A stretch of DNA of 27,728 nt from Gryganskiella cystojenkinii (taxonomy: Eukaryota > Mortierellomycota > Mortierellomycetes > Mortierellales > Mortierellaceae), in the NCBI GenBank assembly GCA_015852425.1, contig JAAAIG010000418.1, forward strand, positions 4,497 to 32,224. The letters are read 5' to 3'. Each line of letters starts with the position of its first letter. Position 1 is the stretch's first letter. A model generated the notes under the pieces. The model made no database searches, was not told the DNA's origin, and worked only from the letters and a program-made list of their open reading frames with translations. Shown here one piece after another: positions 4,957 to 27,728 of the stretch. The position numbers were made by a program, and so were the translations under genes.

Positions 4957-7900
4957 CTATATTGACTTTTGGCTATGTCGCTTCTCCCACTGCGCCTTGG
5001 CAATCTTTCGAAGCGTCGCTGCGTTCTCTGGTCCAGTGCCCTCGACCATACCCTTGAGCCATCCTCCACCAATATTATCATCGTCGTCTCTCAACAGCTC
5101 CCAAGCCTCTCCAAACTCCATGACCTGACCCTGATCCAGAACCAAAATTCGATCGTAAGCCCCATCAATGACAGTATTGAGTCGATGAGCAATCGTAAAC
5201 ACAGTTGCGTCCTTGAACTCTTGATGGATCGCCTGTTGAATCATTCGGTCACTTTGAAGATCCACATTTGCGGTGGCCTCGTCCATGACAATGATCTTGG
5301 ATCGTCTCAACACTGCACGCGCAAGCGATAACAATTGACGCTCTCCAATCGAAAAGTTCTTGCCGTTATCGTCCACATTCGCGTCCAGTCCGCCCTCGAG
5401 TGATTCCACCAGTCGTTTCAGCTCGGCAGCTTCCAATGCTGCCCAAATATCTGCATCCTGATGTTGGTTTGTTGGATCCAGGTTGAAACGAAGGGTACCA
5501 CGGAAGAGGAAAGGTTCTTGAGGGATAATCGCCATCTTGGCACGGAGGTCGTGCATACCAATCTTGCTGATATCGATTCCGTCAATCGTAATACCGCCTC
5601 GGTGCGGTGGATTACCGGTCGTGGTTTCGACCAAACGGAAAATAGCACCAATCAAACTGGACTTGCCAGCACCAGTTCGACCAACTATAGCAATCTTCTC
5701 ACTGCCTCGGAAATCCAATGAGATATTCTTGAGGACTGGACCGTCGCCGCGAGGGTAGGTCAAAGACATGTCTGTGAATGTGACCTTGGCCTCCGAGGGC
5801 CAGCCATTGGGGACGACACTAGAGCCATCGGGGTTGAACAGGTGACGATCGGATTCCTCGGGTTTGACAGTCGTATACTCCATCATACGCTCGACCGAGA
5901 CCATCAGGATCGCGGCCTCGACACTCATCCGGACTGCCCACTGAAGTTCTCCAGAGAGACCGATAATCGAGGACATGGCTAGACCCGCACGCGCAGCTTG
6001 TTGAGAATCCCTGGCGGCCGTACAGGAAATTGCCGTGATACCCAAAAAGACTGCCGATACTGCATCCAGACGAAGTCCCTATAAGAAAAAAAATGCATTC
6101 GATTCATTAGGGAACTTGCACAAAAAAAGGTAGTGCGATGTCGGCATGGCGGACGAAGATAAAAGGCAAACAAAAAAAACTTACCAGCCAACGTGCCATG
6201 GCCAAGTAGAGAAAGAACGGTCGTCCGTTATCCTCTTGGGTCCTCATCTGCTCCTCCATAAATTGACGACTGACACCAAAAGCCCTCACAGAGCTCAACC
6301 CGTCTAGGGTCTCGGAAAGATGTGAATAAATCGGCGAACGGGTCTGACTGTCGATTCTCTTGACCTGACGACTCGCCTTGATATAAAGGGACCTCAGCGC
6401 CGCAAACGCTCCCAAAATAAACGGGACTGCAATAACAATCCAGGGGTTCACGATACAGACGGTGACGATGGATCCCAATAGCATAAACCCGACCTGGATG
6501 GTATCATAGAAGACCTTCGGTAACAACTCATCACAGGTCGCCATGTCCTTTGAGAATCGGTTCAAGACCCGTCCATGAGGGTTTGCATGGAAGAAATCGA
6601 GAGTGGTGCGCATCAATGACTCCATCATGGATGCAAAGATGTTTCGCGCACTCGCGGTCACGCAGTCAAAGAACAGGAACGAGCGAATGATCGTCATGAT
6701 CACTGTACCGAGAGCGTACAGCCCAAAGGTTGTAGGATAGTACGATCGTTTTTGTTCCGTTGCGTCCTTTCCCGACCATACGGTAAGAAAGAAACCGCCT
6801 CCGACCACGATAGCCTGAGCACTCGAGAGGCAGACAGCTGTTAAAATCAACTTTGGCCATGGGGATCCAATACGCAAGAAATCGACATAGGACTTCATGG
6901 TAGTCTCGCCTTCTTGAATCTCCTCGATCGTGAGATTCTTTTCCGCGACACTGGCTTCGTCATCGTTCGCATAACCTGCCTTGACGTTCATCCTCGACGA
7001 TTCTTCCTCGACTTCAGAGGTGACCGCATCGACCTTCTCATGGGTTGTGGTGTCGTCTACCACCTCAGTGGTCTCGGCCTTCTTGGAAAACTCGCGAAGA
7101 ACGTCCACAAACTTGGCTCGCATCCTGACACTTCTAGCCGAGATACCATCGTTGACGACGCTTTCGACGACAACCTCTTCCTGCATAACATCGTCAACGC
7201 GTCCGGTATGGGTGACCTGTCCTTGCTCAAAAACAATGACGTTCTCACAGTCCTTGATATATTGAAGCTGATGCGTCACTAGAACACGGGCCTTGTCCTT
7301 CAACAGTCCGTTGATACAGTTTTCAAAAAGAGCCCGACCGACCTTGGGATCGACAGCGGAAAGAGGATCGTCCAAAATATAAATGTCCGAGTCGCGATAC
7401 GCGGCTCTTGCCAGTGAGACACGGGCACGCTGACCTCCACTCAGAGTCACACCCTTCTCTCCAATAAGCGTGGCATCGCCTTGGGGGAAGAGAGTCAGGT
7501 CCCGAGTCAGTTCACAGGCCTTGATGACCCTGTCGTATCGGTCTTGATCAAACATGGATCCAAACAAGATGTTGGTTCGGATCGACCCTGCAAAGATCCA
7601 TGGCGATTGGGCTGAGTAGGACATGGCCAAAGGTTGTAAGTTTCTAGACCCAGAGAGTTGGCGGTTAGCCTGAACCATAGACCCAGAGACAATTGGCAAC
7701 TCCTTCAAGAGTGCCATGCAGAAACTCGACTTTCCGGAACCGACCGGTCCGACAATCGCCAGTAACTCATCTTTTCGCAGAGTCATGGTGACGTTCTTGA
7801 GGATAGCCTTCTTGGGTGAGCTCCGCGTATTGGAGTCATTGTTTTCAACGGCAGCAGTGTCCACTGGAGAGGAACTCCTCCTTTGATTGTTCTTCTCTTT

Positions 7901-9707
7901 AGATGTCACCCTCGTCTGCTTTTGCCTTTCCTTGCTACACATCTCCAAGATCTCGTTATCTTCCTCGATCGCGATTGTCCACGAGAACGACGCGTCCTTC
8001 ATCTCGACCAAGACGTCCGGTATCTCATAATCCTGACGGCTGTCAACAGCTTTGGCCTTCGATGTCTTGATTTGCTCCAGTTCCAGGGTCAACTGCGAAT
8101 CGTCCCGATGATCCTTCATCATGTCTGATAGTGGGAATGGACTTTTCGGCTCATCTTCAATACTCTTGAGCTCCGGTAGCAACAGGAAGTCGACGATCCG
8201 CTTTGTCGAGACTCGAACTTCGGCAAGCGTCTCCAGGGCCTGTGGGAGGTACAATGTCATAGTCTGCCTCAAGACATTAAACAACGTCAAAGAGACAAAG
8301 ACCTTGTCGGGTGTCAGGGTCTTGCCCTGCAGCCAATACGTCACAAACATGAAAACAGCAATCACAGACTGGAAAAAGGCCCAGATCGACAAGTTCATGG
8401 CTCGCATCGAGTTTGCCGTCCAGATATGCCGAACCTCGATAGATCGTAACATCATGACTTTTTCCTGAAACGGTACTTCCCAGGCACAGAGCTTGACGAG
8501 CTCGATTCCTGAAAAGACATCGGACAGGGTTCGGATCCTTTCATCACGGGCCTCGACGGTTTTGGCCCGCACTCTTGCGAATCGTCGCGAGAAGAAGGCC
8601 TGAATCGGCATGAGAATACCAAAAGCCAAGAGTCCGGCGAAACAAGCCTCTTCCAGCTCCCTCCAGAGAAAGTACATGATCACGATCGCCTCCAAAGGCC
8701 CAAGCACGATGAACATGACTACGACTGAACAGTTTTCGAACGGTTGAACATCTGTTAAGAGAAGTGAAAAACAGGTTAGAGCTCGTTAAAATTATATCGG
8801 CCGAGGTCGAACACACAACGCATAATATCCAACTTGAAAATTGGACCAGAGCTTTAATCATGGGTTATAGATTTCGTTACCATTCGAAATCATGTTGACG
8901 ACCGTTCCTGTGGAGATGGAGCTGGAGGTGGAAAGCGTGAGGCATTTGCGGTACATGAGCGAAATCAAACTCTGTCGAGTCCAGGTTCCGATTCGGAGGG
9001 TATGGAAGTAGTTATGATGATGGATCAGACCATGAAAGAGCGTGAGCAAAAAGAGTCCGACTGCATAGCCCATTCCTTGGTTCATTGTCATCGAAGGTGT
9101 ATCAAAGAATCGAATGACATATCTAGAGCGAAGAGTGTCAGTAAAGTAGAGAGGTAAATGTGAGTATGCTGTTTCCTAATCGGTCAAAAACTGGCATGCT
9201 GCGCATTGTTTACCCAAGAAGGACTGCTTCACTGATCTTGAAGACACTCTCTGTGACTCCAACGAAAGTGGGTACACAAAAGTAAAGACCAAAGCATCGC
9301 CATAGGACCTTGTAGAGATTCGGTCGCTTCATCTTTTGACCTCGAGTCTCAGCCTGAGCCCTCTTTTGTTCGACCTCTGCGGTCCATTCCTTGAACATCA
9401 AGTCCGACAGTCGCTCGATCCGATCGTTCTCGGAGAGTCGTTGAAGGTCATCTTCTTTCAATATATGTGTCTATGAGAGGGCGGATCGAAGGTCCAGTGA
9501 TAACAAAAAAAGTCGTTAGTTGCAGGCACAGCACAGTATCAGGAACCGAGATGTAAGGTCGCTTAAGGAAGAATAAGAGAGAGGAGAAGGTCCAAGAGGC
9601 TGCTGTACCTTTCCGTAAAGAATGAGAGGTTGAATCCACTGGAAGGTGATATAAGAAAGGATGCCGGCTTGCGCAATGGCTGCTGGGGGGTGCTTTGTGT
9701 CTCTCAT
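4957..9707 (-). CDS. ABCC-family full-size ABC exporter (Yor1/MRP-like, no TMD0)
   Basis: Five exons on the minus strand (9707-9609, 9470-9214, 9122-8881, 8751-6185, 6078-4957) give 1428 aa. The introns are 138, 91, 129 and 106 bp, all GT...AG and in phase. The ATG at 9707 is followed by ILSYITFQWIQPLILYGK, the usual ABCC entry into TMD1, so there is no N-terminal TMD0. NBD1 has Walker A GPVGSGKSS near residue 534, signature LSGGQRARVSLARA near 636 and Walker B IYILDDPLSAVD near 656. Its catalytic Glu is replaced by Asp, as is common in ABCC NBD1. NBD2 has Walker A GRTGAGKSS near 1188, a degenerate signature FSIGERQLLSLARA near 1297, Walker B IIVMDEATANVD with the Glu retained near 1317, and the switch His in FTIAHRLNTV. 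About a dozen hydrophobic segments are visible across the two TMDs. A charged insert of about 45 residues sits early in NBD1, and an acidic linker joins NBD1 to TMD2. It probably exports organic anions or drug conjugates at the plasma or vacuolar membrane; the substrate cannot be read from sequence. Confidence 0.95.
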
Positions 9708-16100: not shown

Positions 16101-19084
16101 AGCTTTCTGAGCTCACAGAGTTCTCGGACGAATCCGAGTCCACCAAAGACTCATCCTGCTCTTCCATATCAGAGTAATGAAACTCTTTGGGACTGCTGCT
16201 GCTGCTCACTTCATCTTCCTCGTCGCTGCTACTGAAATCGAGACCGTCGTCTGAAAGATCGTCGAGATCCTCGCTTGAAATGTCACTGAGGTCACCACTG
16301 AGCTCGTCACTCAGATCACCATCGCCAAAGATATCATCGTGGCTGACAGCTAACATCGATGGCGCTGCAGTGGCGTCAGACTCGGAGACATCTGGGCCAG
16401 AGTCAGCGTCACTGCCTGAACCGTTCAGGGCCTTGACATCCTGTGCGACCTCTGGGTCATAGGCAATGAACGGGAATTCGGATTCGATGATGATGGTTGA
16501 CGGTGTCTCCGATCGTCCAGACGAATGTTTGTGTGTTGCCGCCTTTCTAGATGCAGCAATCGCGGGCGTGTAGAGCGTCTTCTCATCCTCGCGACTAACG
16601 ACGAGAGCGTCCTTGCGCTTCTTGGGTCTGCCAGGTCCACGCTTCTTTGGTTCTGCCTTAATCTTGAAATTTACTGGTGAACCCTGTTGAGTCGTAGTCG
16701 AAGATGATCCTGGCTGGTTGTTGTCTGTAACTGAATCCGAAGATGGACGGTTGTTGTGGTTGTGGGTATTGATAGATCGCCTCCGTCCAACGGCCATTTC
16801 CTCCTCCTCGTCTTCAAAGTCACTAAGGGAGCTTGACGAGTCTAATGACATGTGACCATCCGCTGGAATGTTTTCGCTCTCGCGATCGTACTTGATGCGG
16901 CGCAATGACGACTCTTCTTTGACAACCATGCCCTCGTCCTCGTCCTCCTCGTCGCTGAGGGCTTCCGATATATCCGAGCTGGAGGTAGAGAGGGTTTGCT
17001 GGTAGAGATGCATCGACGCCTTCCCACCCTTGAGGCTTTTCCCCCGGCTACGTCCTTTGACTGCCTGCATCAGATGGGGAGCTTTGCCAATACCCTTGCC
17101 ACCTCGTCGAAGGATTGATGGTCGGCGTGGAGTTGACATTGGGTTCTTGTACGATGTGAGAAAGGTGTTACTGGCATACGGTTGAGCAGGTTCTGGCACA
17201 GTCTCGTCGTCGCTCATTATCTGGTAGCTCCTTGTTGGTATTGACTCCACGTCCTGCGGTTCCTGAGCTGCCGTGTTGGGTTGGAATGGCACTTTGATTG
17301 CATTAAAGGAGTGAGAATTCTCGACCAACGGTGTGGTTGAGGCAGAAGGTGGTACGGACTGTTGAGCTGTACTTCCTCCGGTGTTGCATGTACACTCGTC
17401 TTCGCAGACCGGACAGACATCTTCCTCATCATCGTCTTCCATGGTCGGTGGCACTATAATGGAATAGTATTAAAGCAGGTTGAACAGTTAGCGCACGTTC
17501 TATAAAAAGTAGGTGATTAAGATCTTATAGTCGTCATTATAGCTCACCTTGATGGAGGCTGGGGATTACTGCAGCAGCAGTATAGGTCGGTACATTGATG
17601 GTAGTCGGATGTGGTTCGTACTGTAGAGACAAAGGTAATAGCTCCTGTTCTTTACGACGAGGAATCTTGCCAGATTGAGCCTTGGGTTTCTTGGGGCTTG
17701 CTTGTTGCACCGACATGGCCGGCATGGATTCGGTGACATGCAAAGGCTGAGGTGAAGACGATGAGTATCTCTGTTCTTTAGGTTTGCCCCCTAATCCTTG
17801 CATTTCGATACGCGGCGAGTCCACGACTGTGACTTGATCATCCTCGATCAGGTCCACAACCACGTTCTCCTGCTTCTCGGATCTCTTTTCTTCAGACTTT
17901 TTGCTGCGAGATTTAACCTTTGGAGGCTTTGTTGGTTCTTGGACTGCGGAACTGACTCCAAGCATCTGGCGGATGCGAAGGCACTGATCGCAATAGTAGT
18001 GGTTGCTTTTCTTGGCATCCTGGGGCTTCATCCCAATACATCGTCCGTGAAACCACTCTAATGACATTGTATCAAACGCTTGTTTAGTACATGTTGAAAG
18101 GACTGCTCTTTTTGCCGTTATAACGCTCTTTTTGTGTTGTCTGTTACCTTCGCAGCGATCGCATGCAATCATAAACTCTACACCGTCGTAAGGTCCTCTG
18201 CAGATACAGTAGACGTCTTTGGATACCGTCTTTGGCCGCCCAACTTTGCGTGCACTTCCAGACTTTGGCTTGGAGTTGCTTGCCTTGGCTGGTTTGTTTG
18301 CTTTTATGCGCTCGACTGATTGCTCTTTTTTACTGTCTGCAGGCGAAGTTACTGGCAACCCCAGGGGTTGTACCTGTAGTTCTTGTTGTTGTTGGTGGTG
18401 GTTGTGAATGGGTACAACAGAGGCGGGAGTGACGGGAATCGAAGGAGAGACGATTTTTTCTGTTTGCGTAAAGTCCTCAAAGTCAATCACGGTAGCACCG
18501 GAAGCGTCGTATTTTCGGGAAGCATGACCAGTCAGGGTTCCCCTGCCTCGGCCTCGGCCGCGACCCCGACTTGGCGTGGATATGCCTCGAGAGGCAATGG
18601 CTGTGGCTGAGGCAGATATGGCAGCCTGCGAGTAGACTGGCTGAGAGGCAGAGAGGGAGATTGGTGCGTTTCCTTGCTGTTGTGGTTGTTGGAGATGATG
18701 ATGGAGAGGCGATGGAACCTGTTGTTGGGCAGACCTTTCCTTTTTTACTTTGGTCTTGGAGGAAGGGTACTTTTTGCTGGCACGAAGATGCTTTGGGGGT
18801 CTCTTTCCATGACCACTGTTGCCGTCGTCATCGAGGTCCGAGGAACTTTGGTCGGTCGAGTCGGCCGAGTCTGAAGAGGAGAAGGAGTTGGCCCGTGCAG
18901 GCCCTGGTTGTTGTTGTTGTTGTATTTGTTGTCGATGAGAAGAAGGAGGGGTGGACTGTTTTGGCTGTAACCGCATCTTGACCTTGACCTTGCGTTGGTC
19001 ATCCTCGGAAGCCGAGGAAGAGTTGTCTGAGGACAAGGACGCGGCATCGGAGAGGTCAGACGATCCCGAGTCAGAACCCAACAT
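13121..19084 (-). CDS. large acidic PHD-finger, AT-hook chromatin-type protein
   Basis: Four minus-strand exons (19084-18148, 18057-17548, 17453-14728, 14623-13121) give 1891 aa. The frame stays open farther upstream, but the first ATG is at 19084, right after a GA/CT microsatellite, so I start there. Order of parts: Ser/Asp-rich N-terminus, an RG run (173-182), then an AT-hook-like KVGRPKTVSK. A complete PHD finger spans about 291-338 with zinc ligands C293, C295, C308, C311, H316, C319, C335 and C338, and the aromatic CDRCEEWFHG core. Next come a CPVCEDECTC cluster (C496, C499, C503, C505), a second AT-hook KRGPGRPKKRK near 755-764, a very acidic Ser/Asp/Glu stretch about 823-1045, and Gln runs near 1089-1098 and 1590-1601. 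The PHD resembles H3K4-methyl readers of the CFP1/Spp1 and KDM7 type. DNA- and histone-tail binding in the nucleus is inferred. No enzymatic domain is visible, and I cannot name an orthologue. Confidence 0.85.
13991..14035 (-). repeat. CAA/CAG glutamine-coding tract
   Basis: An imperfect CAA/CAG run encodes Gln around residues 1590-1601 of the PHD protein. CAA and CAG codons are mixed, so it is not a pure triplet microsatellite. A second, shorter Gln tract is coded near 15605-15645. Confidence 0.75.
18058..18147 (-). other. 90-bp stop-free intron splitting the PHD finger
   Basis: The donor is GAAG|GTAACA and the acceptor CATTAG|AGTGG. Removing it joins CDRCE to EWFHGRC and restores a canonical PHD core. 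The intron length is a multiple of three and has no stop in the gene's frame, so a retained form would still be open. It would add 30 residues between the fourth Cys and the His of the finger. Confidence 0.88.
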
Positions 19085-20089
19085 GCTCTCTCTCACACTC
19101 ACTCTTTGTCTATCTCTCGCTCTCACTCACTCACTCTCTCTCACTTTCTCTACTGGGAACAGTGCAGGGGAGTGAAGGTCGCTGACTGGATAGAGAATGA
19201 AACGGATGTGTAGGTATGTGTATAGACAGAGCAGCAAAATAGAATGAAGGCGCGCGTGAGAACAGAGAATAGGAAGAGAGAGTGAAAGAGACAGGGGTGG
19301 AATGTGTTCAAGGATGTGTGTGCGGCGCAGAAGAGTAGAAAAAAAGGAATGTGGACAAGGAGATTCACTCTGTAATGAATGCGGATTGAGAGAGAGGGGG
19401 AGAAAGAGTTGTGCGTGCGTATGTGTGTGTGTGTGTGTGTGTATATGTCGATGCGTTGTAATGAATGGATTCAAAGAGGAGGAGGCAATCCCTTTGTTCC
19501 CTTTTTTACTTTGCCTTTGGCGAATGCAAAAATAGAGTCCTCTTTCCCTGTTCAAAAAGTCTCTCAAAAAATAGGTCTCGTCTCTGTCTCTTCAATCTTT
19601 TCGAACTTTTTTCTGTGAACAAAAAAAAAAAAGAAACAAATGAAAAACAGTCACACCCCAGGCAAACAAATCCTACTTTTGGTGGCGTAATCGACCTTCA
19701 CTCAAACATCCAGGGCTGTGTCTCGTCCACGGCCTCCTTTGTACAAAATGATTTTCATAGGTTCCTATTCTGACCTCCAATGGTATCCTGTACCTTGGTG
19801 ACAATTTTTTCTTTCCCTACACGCGATATCTTTTTTTTTTCTTGTTCTTCTCGTTTTCTTTACCCCACCTCTGCCTTGCACTGCGTTGCGCTACGGTTTT
19901 TTGTCCTTTACGTTTTTCCCTTGTACATACTCCTCGTTGGCTCTTTTCTTTGTCTGCATGTCATTCTAGCACATCTCCTTTTATCTCTCCTTCCTCTGTA
20001 AATACATCTTCATCTTTTGTAAATATTTTCCATCTTTATCACCCAAAGAAAAAACCCTTTCCCTTTGAACAGAACAAGAACTCATTATC
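19085..20089. promoter_or_regulatory. divergent intergenic region with microsatellites
   Basis: About 1 kb separates the divergent starts of the PHD gene (19084, -) and the His-rich gene (20090, +), so it should hold both promoters. It contains a CT/CA-rich microsatellite beside the PHD start (19085-19150) and a TG repeat. On the side of the His-rich gene there are several T and pyrimidine tracts (for example 19806-19865 and 19930-20035). AT-rich TGTAAATATTTT near 20018 is not a clear TATA box. The frames seen here (for example 19780-20093) are low complexity and unsupported. Confidence 0.55.
19421..19443 (+). repeat. (TG)n dinucleotide microsatellite
   Basis: About eleven uninterrupted TG units lie in the divergent intergenic region and continue into GTATATG. 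No coding context. Confidence 0.9.
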
Positions 20090-23000
20090 ATGAACAGCAA
20101 CACCTACGAAGCCAGAAAAGTTTCCCGAGGATCGTCCCGACCGGACGAGGACTCGGTCATGGATTCCATGGACGGTTTCACCCTTCCTGGCGCCACCGTT
20201 ATGCGAGTCGTCGCTGTTCGCGATGATGGCTCCGAATTTCGTATTGCCGATGACAAGTACGGTGGTGGTTCAAAGCCCCAGCACTTGAACTCGAAAGCCC
20301 CTGTCAAGGCTGTCGCTACCGATGGGACCGAGTTTGCCCTTCCTCTTGGTGAATACCACAGTTTATAACGTGCAACCATCACCTATGAAAAAAAAACAGT
20401 TCATTTCATCAGGATCTAACCATTTACGACTTTTTTTTTTTTTTTTTACAAACAGACAAGGTTGTCGTTCAGGAGATCGTTTCCGGCAGAAAGGACGAGG
20501 AGCCCGTCAACCACTTGCATCAGCACCTTGGCCATCGAGTCCACGTCGGAATCGATCGTCCATCCCTGACCGTCTTTAGCTCCATGGGTGGTCGTCGCAA
20601 CTCGTCCACGACCGTGCTTGAGTTTGGTGGTAGCTCGGATGCCCACGCCAAGGCTCATGCCAACCAGCCCAAGGAATTTGTTTACCGCGACGAGGACTTT
20701 CAGCCTTTGGTCTCATCCCATCCAAAGAAGTCGTACGTTCTTCACAACGCGTAAATTTGTTTCTTGAACATTATGATCGACGCGTGTATTAAAAAGACGG
20801 CTCTTTTATTTCTTTCCTTTTATATCTTTACAGCACCCAATCAGGATCTTGCGCCCAAGGAGTCTCGTAAGTATTATCTGATTGTTCATACATTACACAT
20901 TGAAAACAGATCCCACGGCTAAACTAACAGGTTACTATTGTTGTGCTTCGTACAGTTCCCAGCACGGAAGCCATGGGATCCAGGCTCAAGTCAAACACTT
21001 GGGATCGTCTATGCATGGTGGATCATCATCGCAAGCACAGACCAAAAGGTATTTTTGGTTTTTGGTTTTTGGTTTCTGGTTCTTTATGAAGATGCTTTAG
21101 AGAAATGAGCTCACGCGACCCTCTGATATCGCCTGTCCTGTATAAAAAAAATAGCCATGACTCATCCTCGTTTGGCCTCAACCCGTCGTTCTTTACGCAA
21201 TCGAGATCCCATCACGACAGCTCTCATGGTACCACGGCCAGCGGTCACCATGCTATTGCGTACCCGGACAGTCGAGAGCACTTCAAGATCCCTCATCACC
21301 ACCATGAACACGATCCAACGGACCATCATGACCACCATGGCCATCAATGCGACGATGAGGACTGTAGCGACCATGACTATAGCCACGAACATCACTTGCA
21401 ACATGGAGGCATTTCCCATGGTGCTCATCAGCATCAACACCACCAGCATGCCCCATCGTCGATGAAGCACCAGACTCATGCCAGAGTCCAATATGGCCAT
21501 GGTCACGGGCAAGGACATCACACTTCTGGCATTGCTACTCCTGAGATGCACTTGGATCAGCTCTTCAAGGAACCTAGCAGTCTGCCTTCGAGATCTGGAC
21601 AGCGACTCCACAGTCACCACCTCGATGCCTTCAATGCTCCTGTTCATTTGATCCATGCCGTGCACGAGCAACATCCTAAAGGGTTGTCATCTCAGTCTCG
21701 TGCAAGTGCTTCGCATCAGCCTTCGCGCCGGGAAGATCCCCATGGCCATCACACCCATGCTGTCCCTGATATGAAGGAGCAGCACAAGATCCCTCATCAT
21801 CACCATGACCATGACCCTGCTGACCATCACGATCATCACCGCCACCAGTGTGACGATGAGGATTGTAGTGATCACGAGGAAAGTCACGAGCATTTCCACC
21901 CTGCCCGTTATTCCTCGCACCCTCAGTACTACCAGCCTCCAGTCCATCATCGATATGCTGCCGTGCAAGCGACTCATGCTCATGGAAGGGACCAATCTCC
22001 CGAGCTGAATTTGGGTACCCTGTTCCCGGATACAACCTCCTACGGATCGTCAAAGAAGAGCAGACAGCAGGGCCCTTCTTACCAGCACCACATCGATCCA
22101 TTCAATGCGCCCGCTCATTTGATCCATCTAAGTGGCGCGTATCACCCCCAAGCACTTCATCGCGACCATCACGACTATGACCACGAACAAGAACAAGAAC
22201 ACTTGGGTCGAAGCGTTGGCCACATGGGACACAAGCCGACCCATCAGTTTGATAGATATGTCGGTCCTGAGCATTCAGACCACGGTCCCTATTCGCACCG
22301 CCACGTAGCCATTCATGCAGCAAGGGCAGACGTCCAGCATCACCAGCAACAGTTAAAGCACCAACACGCGCCTGTGCACAAGTCGCATGTCGCTGTTCAT
22401 ACTCATCACTCCCATGCTCGTGAGGAGTCTCCAGAATGGAATCTTGGAACATTGTTCCAGGATACGAGCTCGTCTGGTACTTTCCGAGGAAAGAAGAGCC
22501 AGTCTCAGCAACCGTCTTGGAGCCAACATCGTCACGTTGAAGCTTTTAACGCGCCTGCCCACCTGATCCACCCTGTCGCACATCATATCGGTGCTTCATC
22601 GTCGTCGTCGTCGTATCATCCCAGCCATGGTACATCTCATGCTAAGACTGATGACGAACATAGCTGGTCCGTTGTCACAGGAAAGAAGAGACGATCCTCT
22701 GGAAAAAGTGCAAGTGCTGCTACGCATGTTCCGTCCCATACTTCCTCCCAAGAGCACCAGGGACAAGCTCTCAAGGGTCATGCTCATGCCGCTCCAGCTC
22801 ATAACATCCACAAGATCCTTCACCACCACCGTGATCAGGAGGCCGGAGATCACCACGATCATCATCGTCACCAGTGTGATGATGAGGAGTGCAGCGATCA
22901 CGATGACAGTCACCAGCATCAGTACCAGCACGCCGGGTATGGCTCCCATAGTTCTCACCAACAGCATCACGCGTCGTCGTCGATCAAACACCAAGCCCAT

Positions 23001-26000
23001 GCAAAACTCCAGACCAGCCATGGTCATCACTCTACTGGGACCTCAACCCCAGAGATGCACTTGGATCAACTGTTCAAGGAATCCAGCACTAGCGGCAAGT
23101 CGTCGAAGTCGCATAAGACCAATAGTACCTCGGCGCACGGCCATCATGTCGAACCATTCAATGCTCCTGCTCATTTGATCCATTCAACTCATGCGCATCA
23201 GTACACTGACGACGGCCACGGTTGGCAGACTCAGGGGAAACGCCGCAAGTCCAACAGTCAGCCAGCCAAGACTGCGCACCGTCCCACAGCTGTTATGCAC
23301 TCGCATGATCATGCTCGGACTGCCTCTCCCGAACTTAACCTCGGTGTTCTCTTTAATGAGAATCAGGTCATGTCCGGCGTAGCCTCCAAGAAAAGCAAGA
23401 ACAAGTTGACTCAGCCCCATCACGTCGATCCCTTCAATGCTCCCGCTCATTTGATCCACCCTGGTAGTCACCATGTCTCGGCAGCTCAGGGATTAAAGTC
23501 CCATGCGACTTATGCGAAAGTGGCGGTGGCGCCCGCCAAACAAAGCAGCGGACATGGCAAGTCTCACCTTCAGCCTCACGCTCAACCGTCTCACATCCCA
23601 GTTCACAAATCTAGACAAGCTCCTCATTCGAAACCTGGCCCGTCGCATCATGCTAAAGGTTCGACTGCCTCTGCACATTCTCACCCAGCCAAGGATTTCC
23701 CTGAGCTTCATTTGGAGGTCCTGTTCAAGGAACAGCATGCTCGCTCTGGCCAGTATTCTGATCATCATCAGACCGGCGATCTGGAGCAACAGCATTTGGA
23801 AGAACACTTGATCAACAAGAGACGAGGAAACTCACATGGACATCATGCAATCGCTGTCCCAGCCCATAATGCTCAACACAAGATCAAGCATGCCGCTGTT
23901 GAAACCGAGCCCTGGGATCATCATAACCACCACCGACACCAGTGCGATGATGAGCACTGTGGCGATCATAACCAGAGTCACCGTCACTTCCATCCTGAGG
24001 GCTACAAGTCGCCATACCCCAAGCCTGTGGTGGCGCCTGTGCACCAACGACATGTCGTTGTTAAATCCGCCCATGGTCGTCATGCTCGGGACGAGTCTCC
24101 AGAGCTAAACTTGGGCGCATTATTTAAAGAGCCTGTGTCCTCTGGATCGAAAAAGTCGAGTGCCTCAAAGACCAAGTCCTCATCTGCTTCGAAATCGCGT
24201 TTCTCTCACCATCATATCGATCCCTTCAACGCTCCTGCTCACTTGATCCACGCAACCGGTATTTATCATCCTCAGGCGTCTCACCACAGCGATTACTACC
24301 ACGAGTATGAGCACATGGGTCGAAGCGTTGGCCACAAAGGACACAAGCCGACTCACCAATTTGACGGCTATGTCGACTCTGAATACTCGGACAACGAACC
24401 CTCGCATCATCAACACCAAGTCACCGCTCATGCTGCCTATCCCAAGACTCAGTACCAGCAGCAACAACATACTCCAGTCCACAAATCGCACTCTGCTGTT
24501 CATGCTCACCATTCTCATGCTCGTAATGAATCTCCAGAGCTGAACCTCGGCACTTTGTTCCAAGAGGTGTCTTATGCAGGCTCTTCTGCTCAAGGACGAA
24601 AGTACAAGCAAGTCCCTTCAAGTCATCATCACGTTGATCCCTTCAATGCCCCGGTTCACTTGATCCATCCTGCCGCTATGTACCACCCTCATGCTCCTTA
24701 TTCTCGTTTGCATTACGCACCAGTCAAGCAGTTCCACACCAATGTCCATGCTCATCATGCCCGCCCCAGGAATGATTCTCCTGAATACAACCTTGGAACC
24801 CTATTTGCTGAGAAGCAAAGCCAATATCAACCGACCCCGAGTCGTCAGGCTCCAGTCCAGTTTGATGAATCGGACGAGCACAAGGATCGCAGCGTTGGAC
24901 ACAAGGGCCATAAGCCCGCCCATTCCCTTCGACCTGTCGATAAACACTGGAATTATGACACCGAGATTCGTGAGAGTGACGACCCTAACTCTCACCACCA
25001 TCAGCACTCGGACCATGAGCCCATGATCTACATTGCGCAGTCTTCGTCTTCGCGCCCAGCTCACGCTAGTAACCATCATACTTCAGCTACCCCTAAGGCG
25101 ACTCAGCAGCATCATCAGGCCGCCCTTTCTGCGGAGCACGATCACAACCACCAATCGTACAAGCATCAGCCTCAACAAATGTACAGCGGACGTGTATCCC
25201 CATATTATAGCTCCCAAAGTCAACGATTTGTGGGTATGCACCACCATTCGTCTCACGCTCGAACCGATTCCCCTGAGATGAACCTTGGTCAACTTTTCCG
25301 AGAGGATGGTCAATCCAGATGGGTACCACACAAGCCTGCCCCACAGCATTTTGTCTCGGGTTCGTATACCTACTCTGCCGCAGTAAAAAATGATCACCAC
25401 GGCAACCCTGTCTCCAAAGTAAGCTGCTGGCAATAACAATTTGAGCTAATTTGTATTCTCTGTGGCGATCACTTATTCCTAACAACCATACTCCTTTTTT
25501 TTTTTCTTACAGTTGCCGTCCTCATCTTCTCGCAGATATCCTTCTCATCACGAGGAGGCTCCTCATATCAGACACTCGGCAGTTCGCGCGCAGCACACTC
25601 GTGTGTCAGCAGCCTCTCCCGAGTTGAATCTCGGAAAGCTATTCGAGATCCCATCTCAATCACGTCCTTCCAAACATCAGCATTTTGAGCCTCTCGAGGA
25701 TGAGGATGAGAAGCATAAGCAGGAGCATTTGCAAAACAGGGCGCGTGGCAACTCTCATGGTCACCATGCTCACGCTACCCCCGATATGAAGGACCAGCAC
25801 AAGACCATTCATCAGCACTATGATCATGACCCTGCTGACCATCACGATCACCATCGCCATCAGTGCGACGACGACGACTGCAGCGACCACGAGGAAAGTC
25901 ACGAGCATTTCCACCCTGCCCGTTATTCCTCGCACCCTCAGTACTACCAGCCTCCAGTCCATCATCGATATGCTGCCGTGCAAGCGACTCATGCTCATGG

Positions 26001-27728
26001 ACGGGACCAATCTCCCGAGCTGAATTTGGGTACCCTGTTCCCGGATACGACATCCTACGGATCGTCAAAGAAGAGCAGGCAACAGGTCCCTTCTTACCAT
26101 CACCACGTCGATCCATTCAATGCGCCCGCTCATTTGATCCATCCAGCTGACACGTATCACCCCCAAGCACCTCATCGCGACCATCACGACTATGACTACG
26201 AACATGAACACATGGGTCGAAGCGTTGGTCATAAAGGACACAGACCGACTCACCAGTTCGACCACTACGGTGTCCATACGCCAGTTCATAAGTCGCATAC
26301 CGCCGTCCATGGGCAACACCTCAATCGCCGAGATCAGACTCCTGATATGAACTTGGGTTCTCTATTCCAAGAAACCGACGCTTCGTACGGCAAGAGTCAG
26401 CGTAGCGCCGCTCCTTGGAGTCAACATCACCATGTTGACCCCTTTAATGCTCCGGTTCATTTGATCCACTCTGCTGGTACATACCGCGCGCAGGCGCCTT
26501 CCGCTTCTCGTTCGCATCAAGTGCCCGTGAACCAATTCCACGCAACGGTTCATGCCCATCATTCCCGACCCAGAAATGACTCGCCCGAGTACAACCTCGG
26601 ATCTCTCTTTGCTGAAAACCAAAGCAGATCGAACCGACACGCGCCTCTTCACTCTGAACACACCGACAACTCGCTTGAGCACAAAGATCGTAGTATCGGA
26701 CACCATGGACACAAACCCGCTCATGCCCTTCGTCCTACTGGCAAGCACTGGGATTACGATATCGAGATGCGCGAGAGCGACGATCCTCATGCTCACCACC
26801 ATCCCGAGCATGATCATCAACAGGGATATGATGCCAAGGGACGTCCTTACCTCCTTGGGGCTGATGATTATGACGACTTTCAGTACCATGCTCCTGCACA
26901 GCAGCATAACACTGGCTCGTCTTACGATCATCAAGTTGACAAACATACTCTGAATCAACAGCGCGGTAACTCTCATGGATACCACGCTATTGCTTACCCT
27001 GACAGTCAGCACCATTTCAAGGTTTCTCATCTTCACCACGACCATGACTCTACCGACCATCACAACCACCACCGTCATCAGTGCGACGATGAGTACTGTA
27101 GTGATCATGAGGAGAGTCATGCTCATCATGGCCACCCTACGCATACATCTTTGCCTTCCTCCTACGGTCGTTCTGGTGGAGCAGCCGGTCAAGGTTTCGG
27201 GTCGTTCTTGGCTGATCATACTGCTGAGATCGTTGACCTTAACGATGCACACTTGAACATTGGAGCCTTTTATGGTGAGGCGCCAGACTTTCATCATCAA
27301 CGAAAGACTCATTCCACTGGCGGAAGTCATCTGGGATCTATGAGTTACGCTGAGGCCGTCAAGCACGCATCACACCATCATGCATACAATCCCGTAAGAA
27401 TTACAGAACAAGCTGCTAGAGGGGGGTTTTTTTTTCATTTGCTGAAATCATCCGCATAACAACTAAGTCCTCGACTCCATTCATTTTTTTTTTTTACATA
27501 ATTTAGGTGACTTCCTGGTCGTCTCATGCACCGAGACAGCGTCACCCACCCACGCACCCTCGACGCCCCGTGGTCCGTGCAGCTCACCACCACCACACCG
27601 CATCATCCTCGCCCAATCTCAATCTCGGTACTCTCTTCCCAGAGTCGAGAAGTGGAGGTGATATCGGATACAGGTACCAGTCAAGATTTACGGGTCGTAT
27701 TGGAACCCATATCCTCGATGAACGACCA
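20090..27728 (+). CDS. giant histidine-rich modular repeat protein, 3' end beyond window
   Basis: Seven exons are visible: 20090-20348, 20456-20732, 20834-20866, 20956-21048, 21101-25418, 25513-27393 and 27507 onward. They total 7083 nt, or 2361 codons, with no stop inside the window. All introns are GT...AG and in phase; the third has a CTAAC branch-like site. The first 200 residues are not His-rich and contain a short internal repeat (VVAVRDDGSEFRIADD and VKAVATDGTEFALPLDK). From exon 4 on, His makes up 17-25 of every 100 residues in the four blocks I counted. The rest interleaves four motif families: a Cys/His module (6 copies), SPELNLGxLFxE (15 plus one degenerate), PFNAPAHLIH (9) and GRSVGHKGHKP (5). 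There is no signal peptide or membrane segment in the N-terminus, so it is likely cytosolic or nuclear. I recognise no family. Metal binding or multivalent scaffolding is inference. A separate start at the ATG at 21105 is possible, but the upstream exons join in frame. Confidence 0.8.
20733..20833 (+). other. intron 2 of the His-rich gene, with alternative in-frame donors
   Basis: Two donors, GTACGT at 20733 and GTAAAT at 20751, are 18 bp apart and leave the same phase. Both join to the acceptor TTTACAG ending at 20833. Use of the second would add six residues (YVLHNA). I prefer the first because it has G at position +5. Confidence 0.6.
21873..22250 (+). repeat. superblock segment A of a recent intragenic duplication
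   Basis: This matches 25888-26265 at a constant offset of 4015 bp. The first 160 bp or so (21873-22032) shows one difference by eye, including third codon positions. Similarity then falls but stays high to about 22250. Just left of 21873 synonymous differences are frequent, so the near-identity has a sharp left edge. Confidence 0.8.
25419..25512 (+). other. intron 5 of the His-rich gene
   Basis: GTAAGC donor after a lysine codon and TTTTTTCTTACAG acceptor, phase 0. It follows a YSAAVKNDHHGNPVSK segment. The intron at 27394-27506 (GTAAGA donor, ATAATTTAG acceptor, phase 0) follows a related YAEAVK...NP segment, so the two introns occupy matching places in a duplicated unit. Confidence 0.85.
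25888..26265 (+). repeat. superblock segment B of a recent intragenic duplication
   Basis: Partner of 21873-22250. The offset of 4015 bp minus the 94-bp intron at 25419-25512 equals 1307 codons exactly, so both copies are read in the same frame. Confidence 0.8.

Follow-up and report, generated by a model that had tools for sequence, protein, structure and literature searches.

A giant histidine-rich protein family of Mortierellaceae built from repeated, constrained motifs

A giant gene cut by the end of its contig

We analyzed a stretch of 27,728 nucleotides from Gryganskiella cystojenkinii (Mortierellaceae), hereafter the window. A giant gene runs on the forward strand from an ATG at position 20090 to the end of the window at 27728. 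It has seven exons (20090-20348, 20456-20732, 20834-20866, 20956-21048, 21155-25418, 25513-27393 and 27507-27728) separated by six introns, all GT-AG, and its 2343 codons are free of stops. An earlier note on this DNA had recognized the giant multi-exon open frame but had put it at 2361 codons or more. The GenBank model, recorded as 'hypothetical protein BGZ83_007250, partial', agrees with the translation at every one of its 2324 residues. Since the end of the window is also the end of contig C462, the gene is truncated inside and its 3' part is missing. Judging from the splice consensus, the GenBank model and the long relatives, the exons appear to form one gene and not separate short ones. 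The window contained no RNA element at the Rfam gathering score and no tRNA.

Exons 1 and 2 (20090-20732, forward strand) encode a conserved N-terminus with the boxes RPSLTVFSSMGGRRNSSTT and KEFVYRDEDFQPL. The N-terminal KEFxYR box, in the form KE[FY]x[FY]R[DE][DE]DFQPL, occurs in 13 of the 20 family proteins compared below. Histidine makes up 383 of the 2343 residues (16.3%), rising to 17-18% over the two long exons, with a peak of 31 per 100 residues; the protein is thus His-rich, at an overall share slightly lower than the one-fifth noted earlier for sampled blocks. Cysteine is rare (13 in 2343 residues, 0.6%), and 12 of the 13 lie within six copies of a Cys/His module, M.

Four repeated motifs under selection

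The protein was scanned with score matrices whose thresholds were taken from shuffled sequence. The scan gave 6 copies of M, 15 of L, 9 of F and 5 of G, in the order M-L-F, M-L-F-G-L-F, M-L-F-L-F-L, M-L-F-G-L-F-L-G-L-L, M-L-F-G-L-F-L-G, M-(L)-L, confirming the four motif families and the order that had been read from the sequence. Simpler patterns gave 14 L, 9 F, 5 G and 6 M; when the window protein was shuffled 20 times, they averaged 0.0 (rounded). One additional degenerate L (LNIGAFYGE, 27241-27279, forward strand), bracketed in the order above, was read by eye and lies below the scan threshold. The G motifs are at 22197-22253, 24309-24365, 24876-24932, 26206-26262 and 26677-26733, all on the forward strand.

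The full module is about 55 residues long, and M is its second half. A GHHAxAxP-like R box lies upstream in all six copies, so the Cys/His module noted earlier is present six times but extends further upstream than M. With the R box included, the copies occupy 21228-21395 (C-x4-C-x2-H), 21729-21896, 22758-22922, 23823-23990, 25744-25911 and 26962-27129 on the forward strand by the score-matrix scan. Both Cys and many of the His are invariant in the six copies.

The motifs M, L, F and G are under purifying selection at the protein level. Between internal copies, pN/pS was 0.078 for F, 0.081 for M, 0.164 for G and 0.28 for L; the ratio for M is rough only, because its pS of 1.17 exceeds the range of the method. 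The forward-strand block 21741-22040 is 90% identical over 300 bases to 25756-26055, also on the forward strand.

L and F had been treated as separate words. In the window protein, they are the two ends of one unit, in which an acidic-hydrophobic L (consensus S/TPELNLGxLFxE) is followed by a basic, Ser-rich linker and then by F (consensus D/EPFNAPxHLIH). Motif scan and linker analysis place nine such units on the forward strand, at 21531-21659, 21990-22130, 22422-22574, 23040-23186, 23319-23462, 24090-24254, 24525-24671, 26005-26145 and 26332-26472. Six further forward-strand L motifs from the score-matrix scan have no F (23691-23735, 24771-24815, 25263-25307, 25609-25653, 26575-26619 and, the last, in exon 7, 27603-27647). 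The linker is about 20 residues long, rich in Lys, Arg and Ser and almost free of acidic residues, and it occurs in six proteins, including one encoded by a second gene in this genome. The 27 linkers of these six proteins hold 104 Lys/Arg and 7 Asp/Glu, against averages of 48 and 49 in control segments, and their net charge of +97 compares with a maximum of +44 in 1000 control draws. When the motif order was shuffled 20000 times with the R box excluded, 71 shuffles had L after every M and 1 had L before every F. The rule that M is always followed by L and F always preceded by it stands for the window protein but is not general, as Linnemannia proteins break it.

No fold was predicted by AlphaFold2, at low confidence, for a 174-residue M-L-F-G block (mean pLDDT 48.6) or for a whole relative of 1096 residues (mean pLDDT 40.6); both models were made with shallow alignments and no metal, which puts folding on metal beyond their reach.

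Relatives within Mortierellaceae

Three large protein searches found relatives only in Mortierellaceae, plus one protein of unnamed source (P0018). Because the searches took candidates of 0.55-1.75 times the query length with exact words in common, they may miss relatives outside the family that are shorter or distant. Twenty proteins were compared: the window protein, a draft from contig C136 of the same genome, and P0002-P0019, with P0001 left out as a duplicate of the window protein. P0019 (E 0.51) was counted as a relative because of its R/M and F motifs. The rows are not all independent, as five are M. alpina strains and P0004 and P0005 both come from P. clonocystis; P0001, P0003, P0015 and P0016 are labelled partial. 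Sequence relatives include E. parvispora EMPS_02652, Podila BGZ81_007619 and BGZ81_003239, Linnemannia BGZ95_001717, M. alpina KVV02_002275 and M. polycephala BG011_006577, all hypothetical proteins. The labels in this family are 'hypothetical', 'uncharacterized' or 'unnamed' only, and the motif set varies by genus.

L was found in 20 of the 20 proteins, M in 11, F in 10 and G in 6; some of the L matches in the M. alpina group are the related LxLFPEE box, and a few weak ones elsewhere may be due to chance. The L-F unit is present in six proteins. The C136 gene (8.7% His) lacks M and has two good L-F units, and Podila P0016 likewise lacks M and consists of six L-F units. The M. alpina proteins (6.4-7.2% His) and the C136 gene share the N-terminus and L with the window protein and have no M, and the motif scan found no F in M. 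alpina. The M-bearing Podila proteins P0004, P0005 and P0011 have neither F nor G. In Linnemannia, the orders F-F, M-F and M-G occur, as does F without L. An L lies within 45 residues upstream of F in 0 of 17 cases in Linnemannia and P0019, compared with 27 of 28 in the other six F-bearing proteins. The His share is highest in the window protein; Gln/His runs are also present in relatives.

Identity within motifs did not always exceed the background. Pairwise identities were 48% in L and 50% outside motifs for P0003 and P0008, and 77% and 75%, respectively, for P0004 and P0011. For the window and E. parvispora proteins, they were 60% in F, 67% in L and 50% outside motifs. The tree of the N-terminus for dating the paralogues did not settle 7 of the 11 inner branches and contained one very long row; orthology is therefore given only as the best BLAST match by a single alignment. 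The summed scores of the C136 gene leave the groups unseparated (up to 591 with M. alpina, 579 with the window protein).

The Cys-Cys-His set of M is retained in all 12 modules of the window and E. parvispora proteins and in 14 of 16 Podila modules, but in just 4 of 21 modules of Linnemannia and P0019 and in neither of the two of M. polycephala. Only part of the paralogues carry M modules, which are putative metal clasps.

Candidate functions and known systems

None of Pfam, NCBIfam and the PDB offers a family that accounts for the window protein, which supports the earlier remark that no named family is known with this architecture. Pfam gave no match for both long window reading frames, the N-terminal piece, P0002 and P0004; for P0007, it gave Hirudin alone (E 0.36), under the cut-off. 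NCBIfam, a prokaryote-oriented library, gave none for P0001, P0002 and P0014. A PDB sequence search returned one match for M at E 8.4 and none for L-F. In a limited literature search, from which we do not claim absence from print, no paper joining Mortierella with a histidine-rich protein was found.

Two functions had been proposed for this protein, metal storage or buffering and a multivalent scaffold. If its main job were to hold zinc, copper or nickel, the 383 His would supply ligands by the hundred, and the strong constraint on M (pN/pS about 0.08) and its intact Cys/His set in the window and E. parvispora modules would be expected. However, the C136 gene and the M. alpina proteins lack M despite their common N-terminus and L, most Linnemannia modules have lost their Cys, and plain buffering gives the constrained L, F and G no evident role. 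Metal buffering is thus weakened as the main function, and we regard it as unlikely. A gel-forming or structural protein of the coenocytic hypha, in a wound plug, at the septum or at the cell cortex, acting like Gellin with an unrelated sequence, would suit a giant, repetitive, His-rich protein with no predicted fold, in a lineage whose hyphae are mostly aseptate. No predicted fold resembles the Gellin beta-trefoils, though the model is of low confidence, and we consider this explanation improbable. We give hardly any credence to functionless low-complexity sequence from repeat expansion. The 90% identical block and the Gln/His runs of relatives would suit it, but it is already disfavoured by the selection test (motif pN/pS 0.08-0.28), the motifs are common to several genera and the two long exons stay open.

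The scaffold could also belong to an mRNA-binding complex, with F (DPFNAPAHLIHP) as a divergent PAM2 for docking to poly(A)-binding protein through its MLLE domain. PMC9249222 and PMC4466420 give the PAM2 consensus as xxLNxxAxEFxP, and PMC9249222 names Phe at position 10 as the major binding determinant. Against this consensus, F is in register at Asn (42 of 45 motifs) and Ala (34 of 45), with Phe in 42 and Leu in 2 of 45 at position 3. The genome also has at least two MLLE loci above the Pfam cut-off. However, position 10 is Phe in just 1 of 45, position 9 is Leu instead of Glu in 34, position 12 is Pro in 14, and none of the 45 fits the ELM pattern for PAM2. We rejected F as a PAM2 because the key Phe is missing in 44 of 45, and this docking mode is very improbable.

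The multivalent scaffold fits better than buffering, and our preferred reading, held tentatively and at somewhat less than an even chance, is a giant disordered Mortierellaceae scaffold that combines L-linker-F docking units for a partner with metal clasps in M. Each L-linker-F unit would be a bipartite docking site for one partner, hydrophobic at either end and positively charged in between, and nine or more units per chain could gather many copies of it. The M modules may coordinate a transition metal ion (Zn, Cu or Ni) with Cys-x4-Cys-x2-His plus the adjacent His cluster. Depending on metal or pH, they might fold or cross-link the chains, which would make assembly responsive to conditions. 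This reading draws on the selection on the motifs, the presence of L in all 20 proteins, the basic linkers, the L-F units without M in the C136 gene and P0016, and the low pLDDT values, taken as disorder; for metal, it draws on the placing of 12 of the 13 Cys in M and on the Cys-Cys-His set of the window, E. parvispora and Podila modules. Against it count the limit of the L-F unit to 6 of 20 proteins, the lack of F in M. alpina, the loss of the Cys-Cys-His set in most modules of Linnemannia and P0019 and in both of M. polycephala, and the motif identities that do not always exceed the background. A bolder version, which we consider rather unlikely, sees in the Mortierellaceae a condition-gated scaffold of a new class, with the L-basic-F array and the metal-clasp modules in one paralogue, in which metal, or pH acting through hundreds of His, switches partner crowding in the hypha. 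Mortierellaceae are oleaginous soil fungi, and this constrained, unnamed giant protein family offers a natural experiment, since some paralogues carry the putative metal modules and others lack them. Should the clasp idea hold, it would provide a genetically simple case of assembly under metal control, together with a docking unit defined well enough to serve as bait for the partner.

Among known systems, the PAM2/PAM2L proteins Upa1 and Upa2 of Ustilago maydis are comparable in their repeated short motif, which is about as long as F and lines up with it at Asn and Ala. The difference lies in the PAM2 key Phe, which 44 of 45 F motifs lack, and in the domains: having no Pfam match, the window protein shows no FYVE, ankyrin or RING domain. 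With His-rich metal-binding proteins and metallothioneins, it shares dense His, paired Cys and acidic neighbours. Metallothioneins are small and have a large share of Cys, whereas the window protein is giant, with 13 Cys in 2343 residues, and does not fit that description; unlike either group, it has constrained motifs without evident metal ligands. Gellin of Mucoromycota, a large repeat protein of folded beta-trefoil (Gll) domains from a neighbouring fungal lineage, resembles it in being large and repetitive; Gellin is set apart by its folded domains, in contrast to the family described here, for which no fold is predicted.

The giant gene and its surroundings

The window covers positions 4497-32224 of contig C462 (total 32224) in a 35 Mb assembly, reaching the contig's right end. 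The giant His-rich gene at 20090..27728 (+) was modelled with seven exons and six GT-AG junctions, giving 2343 codons and zero stops. Its database record, hypothetical protein BGZ83_007250, partial (Gryganskiella cystojenkinii, Mortierellaceae), matched the model translation at all 2324 residues and ended 19 residues short of the contig end (window 27672-27728). These 19 residues contain FTGRIGTHILDERP, similar to FTGHIGTHGQDDHG at the corresponding E. parvispora site. Because of this resemblance, the frame probably continues past the contig end, and the record is probably too short at its 3' end.

A divergent gene at 17537-19126 (-) gave a Pfam PHD-finger match just under the cut-off (PF00628, E 7.5e-5). 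Its likely start and the ATG of the giant gene are about 1 kb apart, so a common promoter region may serve both. The window also holds a large frame with a match to the fungal PH-like domain PF25381 (1457-4528, +), an ABC transporter spread over two long frames (4957-8785, -) that match ABC_tran twice and a membrane domain once, and a frame matching reverse-transcriptase RNase H (PF17917; 10812-11627, +), probably part of a retroelement fragment.

Motif modules and their constraint

Motif matrices were seeded with the window copies and refined on 20 family proteins (the window protein, the draft of a second gene on contig C136 of the same genome, and P0002-P0019; P0001 was excluded as a duplicate of the window protein), with thresholds set by shuffles. 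In the window protein, the scan found six M (Cys/His module), 15 L (SPELNLG-type), nine F (FNAPAHLIH-type) and five G (GRSVGHKGH-type), in the order given by the earlier note; the listed coordinates were verified by translation. YAEAVK-like and WSVVTGKKRR-like words also recur. Differences among the internal copies are mostly at silent sites, with pN/pS of 0.078 for F, 0.081 for M (a rough ratio, as the pS of 1.17 is outside the method's range), 0.164 for G, 0.28 for L and 0.50 for the R box, a GHHAxAxP-like box upstream of M. Codon usage varies at most invariant motif residues, one exception being the Ile of F (ATC in 9/9). Therefore, the sameness of the motifs mostly does not come from recent copying. 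A duplicated block (21741-22040 vs. 25756-26055) has 90% identity, with pS 0.32 and pN 0.04. Judging from sequence, the giant gene is constrained; this, the open frame and the reproduced motif counts and order uphold the original observation of a giant motif-repeat His-rich gene.

The M motif was recognized earlier in its six copies but incompletely, being part of a longer module. The R box begins 28-29 residues upstream of M in all six; it carries invariant His, Ala and Pro residues plus a Lys. The modules carry a dense His cluster and 12 of the 13 Cys of the window protein, the remaining one being residue 185 in exon 3. The Cys-Cys-His set is intact in 12/12 modules of the window and E. parvispora proteins and in 14/16 of Podila, and in only 4/21 of four Linnemannia proteins plus P0019 and 0/2 of M. 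polycephala. Many modules without the intact set retain the DxHxHxRHQ part, indicating that either His alone is enough there or the function has shifted. We infer that the M modules bind metal and gate assembly.

L and F had been described as separate motifs. Both are present, but in the window protein they make one unit with a basic linker. From 28 neighbouring L-F pairs, 27 linkers of at most 45 residues were taken (one pair, spacer 294, was excluded): nine from the window protein, six from P0016, five from P0002, three from P0018 and two each from the C136 gene and P0014. Their 542 residues include 104 Lys/Arg, 7 Asp/Glu and 135 Ser. Equal-length non-motif segments of the same proteins, drawn 1000 times, averaged 48 Lys/Arg and 49 Asp/Glu, and their net charge reached at most +44 vs. 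+97 for the linkers. An L lies within 45 residues upstream of 27/45 F motifs, all in these six proteins (27/28 there), and of 0/17 in P0003, P0008, P0015 and P0019. Across the compared sequences, the L-F unit is thus not general and is absent from the Linnemannia group.

Relatives and the second gene

Apart from the window protein's own record, searches of 5.8 billion proteins returned proteins named as Entomortierella, Linnemannia, Podila and Mortierella, and one without an organism name. Pfam, NCBIfam and PDB sequence searches gave no match to a described family, and the family is without a name in the database records compared. L is present in all 20 proteins, F in 10, M and R in 11 each and G in six. 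The motif string is LFRMLFGLFRMLLFLRMFGGLFGRMLLRLGRMLLMLL in E. parvispora, R-M-L repeats with zero F and zero G in Podila P0004, six L-F in Podila P0016, and L only in M. alpina. The earlier rule that M is always followed by L and F always preceded by L stands in the window protein but fails in Linnemannia P0003, with its neighbours F-F, M-F and M-G; as far as these strings indicate, the strict grammar belongs to the window protein rather than to the family.

The N-terminal box KEFxYRDEDFQPL (window 20090-20732) is highly conserved: 13/20 proteins have it, among them the products of both genes in this genome, and they span four named genera. As a remark, its RDEDFQPL has an acidic F-x-P core like that of PAM2, but neither LN nor Ala. 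Relatives also carry LYPEEExxYPRG boxes, and their acidic C-terminus contains WVKKxxTTxEFYDSDD. The C-terminal parts of P0002, P0004, P0007 and the C136 gene, absent from the window, repeat an LxLFPEExxYPRG box, often followed by ENPxHP. A GLGGIRSMLGSxHxP-like segment, also repeated there, looks amphipathic by eye.

The C136 gene (locus L018, 2846-9479, -) has an N-terminus of the same kind, L-basic-F units and zero M, and shares the exon 1-2 intron position (LPL / D, then VVVQEI) with the window gene; GETVIWVKKVYTTQEFYDSDDEDD lies close to its end. Its string is L-F-L-F-L-(F)-L-L-L, the third F being a doubtful match excluded from F counts (45/46 retained). On one reading, an ancestral L scaffold (perhaps L-F) was duplicated and M was gained in one copy; M may instead have been lost in the other copy, and F lost in M. 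alpina. By single BLAST alignments, the C136 protein was closest to M. alpina and Mortierella sp. GBA30, at 273 to 226 bits compared with 124 for the window protein, but summed scores (591 vs. 579 for the window) did not separate the groups, and neither did an N-terminal tree. The window protein's best match is E. parvispora P0002, and vice versa.

Proposed function and comparison with PAM2

AlphaFold2 models, both metal-free and from shallow alignments, predicted nothing stable for window 25744-26265 (six window copies aligned; mean pLDDT 48.6, 0/174 residues at or above 70) or M. polycephala P0014 (14 proteins aligned; mean 40.6, 13/1096 residues at 70-90). The sole helix longer than four residues, at 427-440 of P0014, directly precedes an R box. 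In the window model, 10-residue blocks at mid-M, mid-L and mid-F scored 55-58 and the rest 39-53, except that a block immediately preceding M reached 55. G had no peak.

Because L occurs throughout the family and L-basic-F arrays occur in six proteins, on a chain without a predicted fold, we propose that the protein would recruit a partner in many copies. Of the two functions suggested earlier, a scaffold fits better and metal storage more poorly. A giant disordered multivalent scaffold is a tentative proposal, to which we give somewhat less than even chances. It is rather unlikely that this scaffold is also condition-gated, with metal or pH acting on metal-clasp modules to switch partner crowding on an L-basic-F docking array. 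The missing L-F unit in the Linnemannia group lowered our confidence in both. The architecture is unusual, and the family gives a usable natural comparison.

PAM2 is given as xxLNxxAxEFxP, with Phe as the main determinant (PMC9249222, PMC4466420). The F motif was rejected as PAM2 at this key position, where Ile or Leu replaces Phe in 39/45 copies; the Asn of PAM2 is present in 42/45 and its Ala in 34/45.
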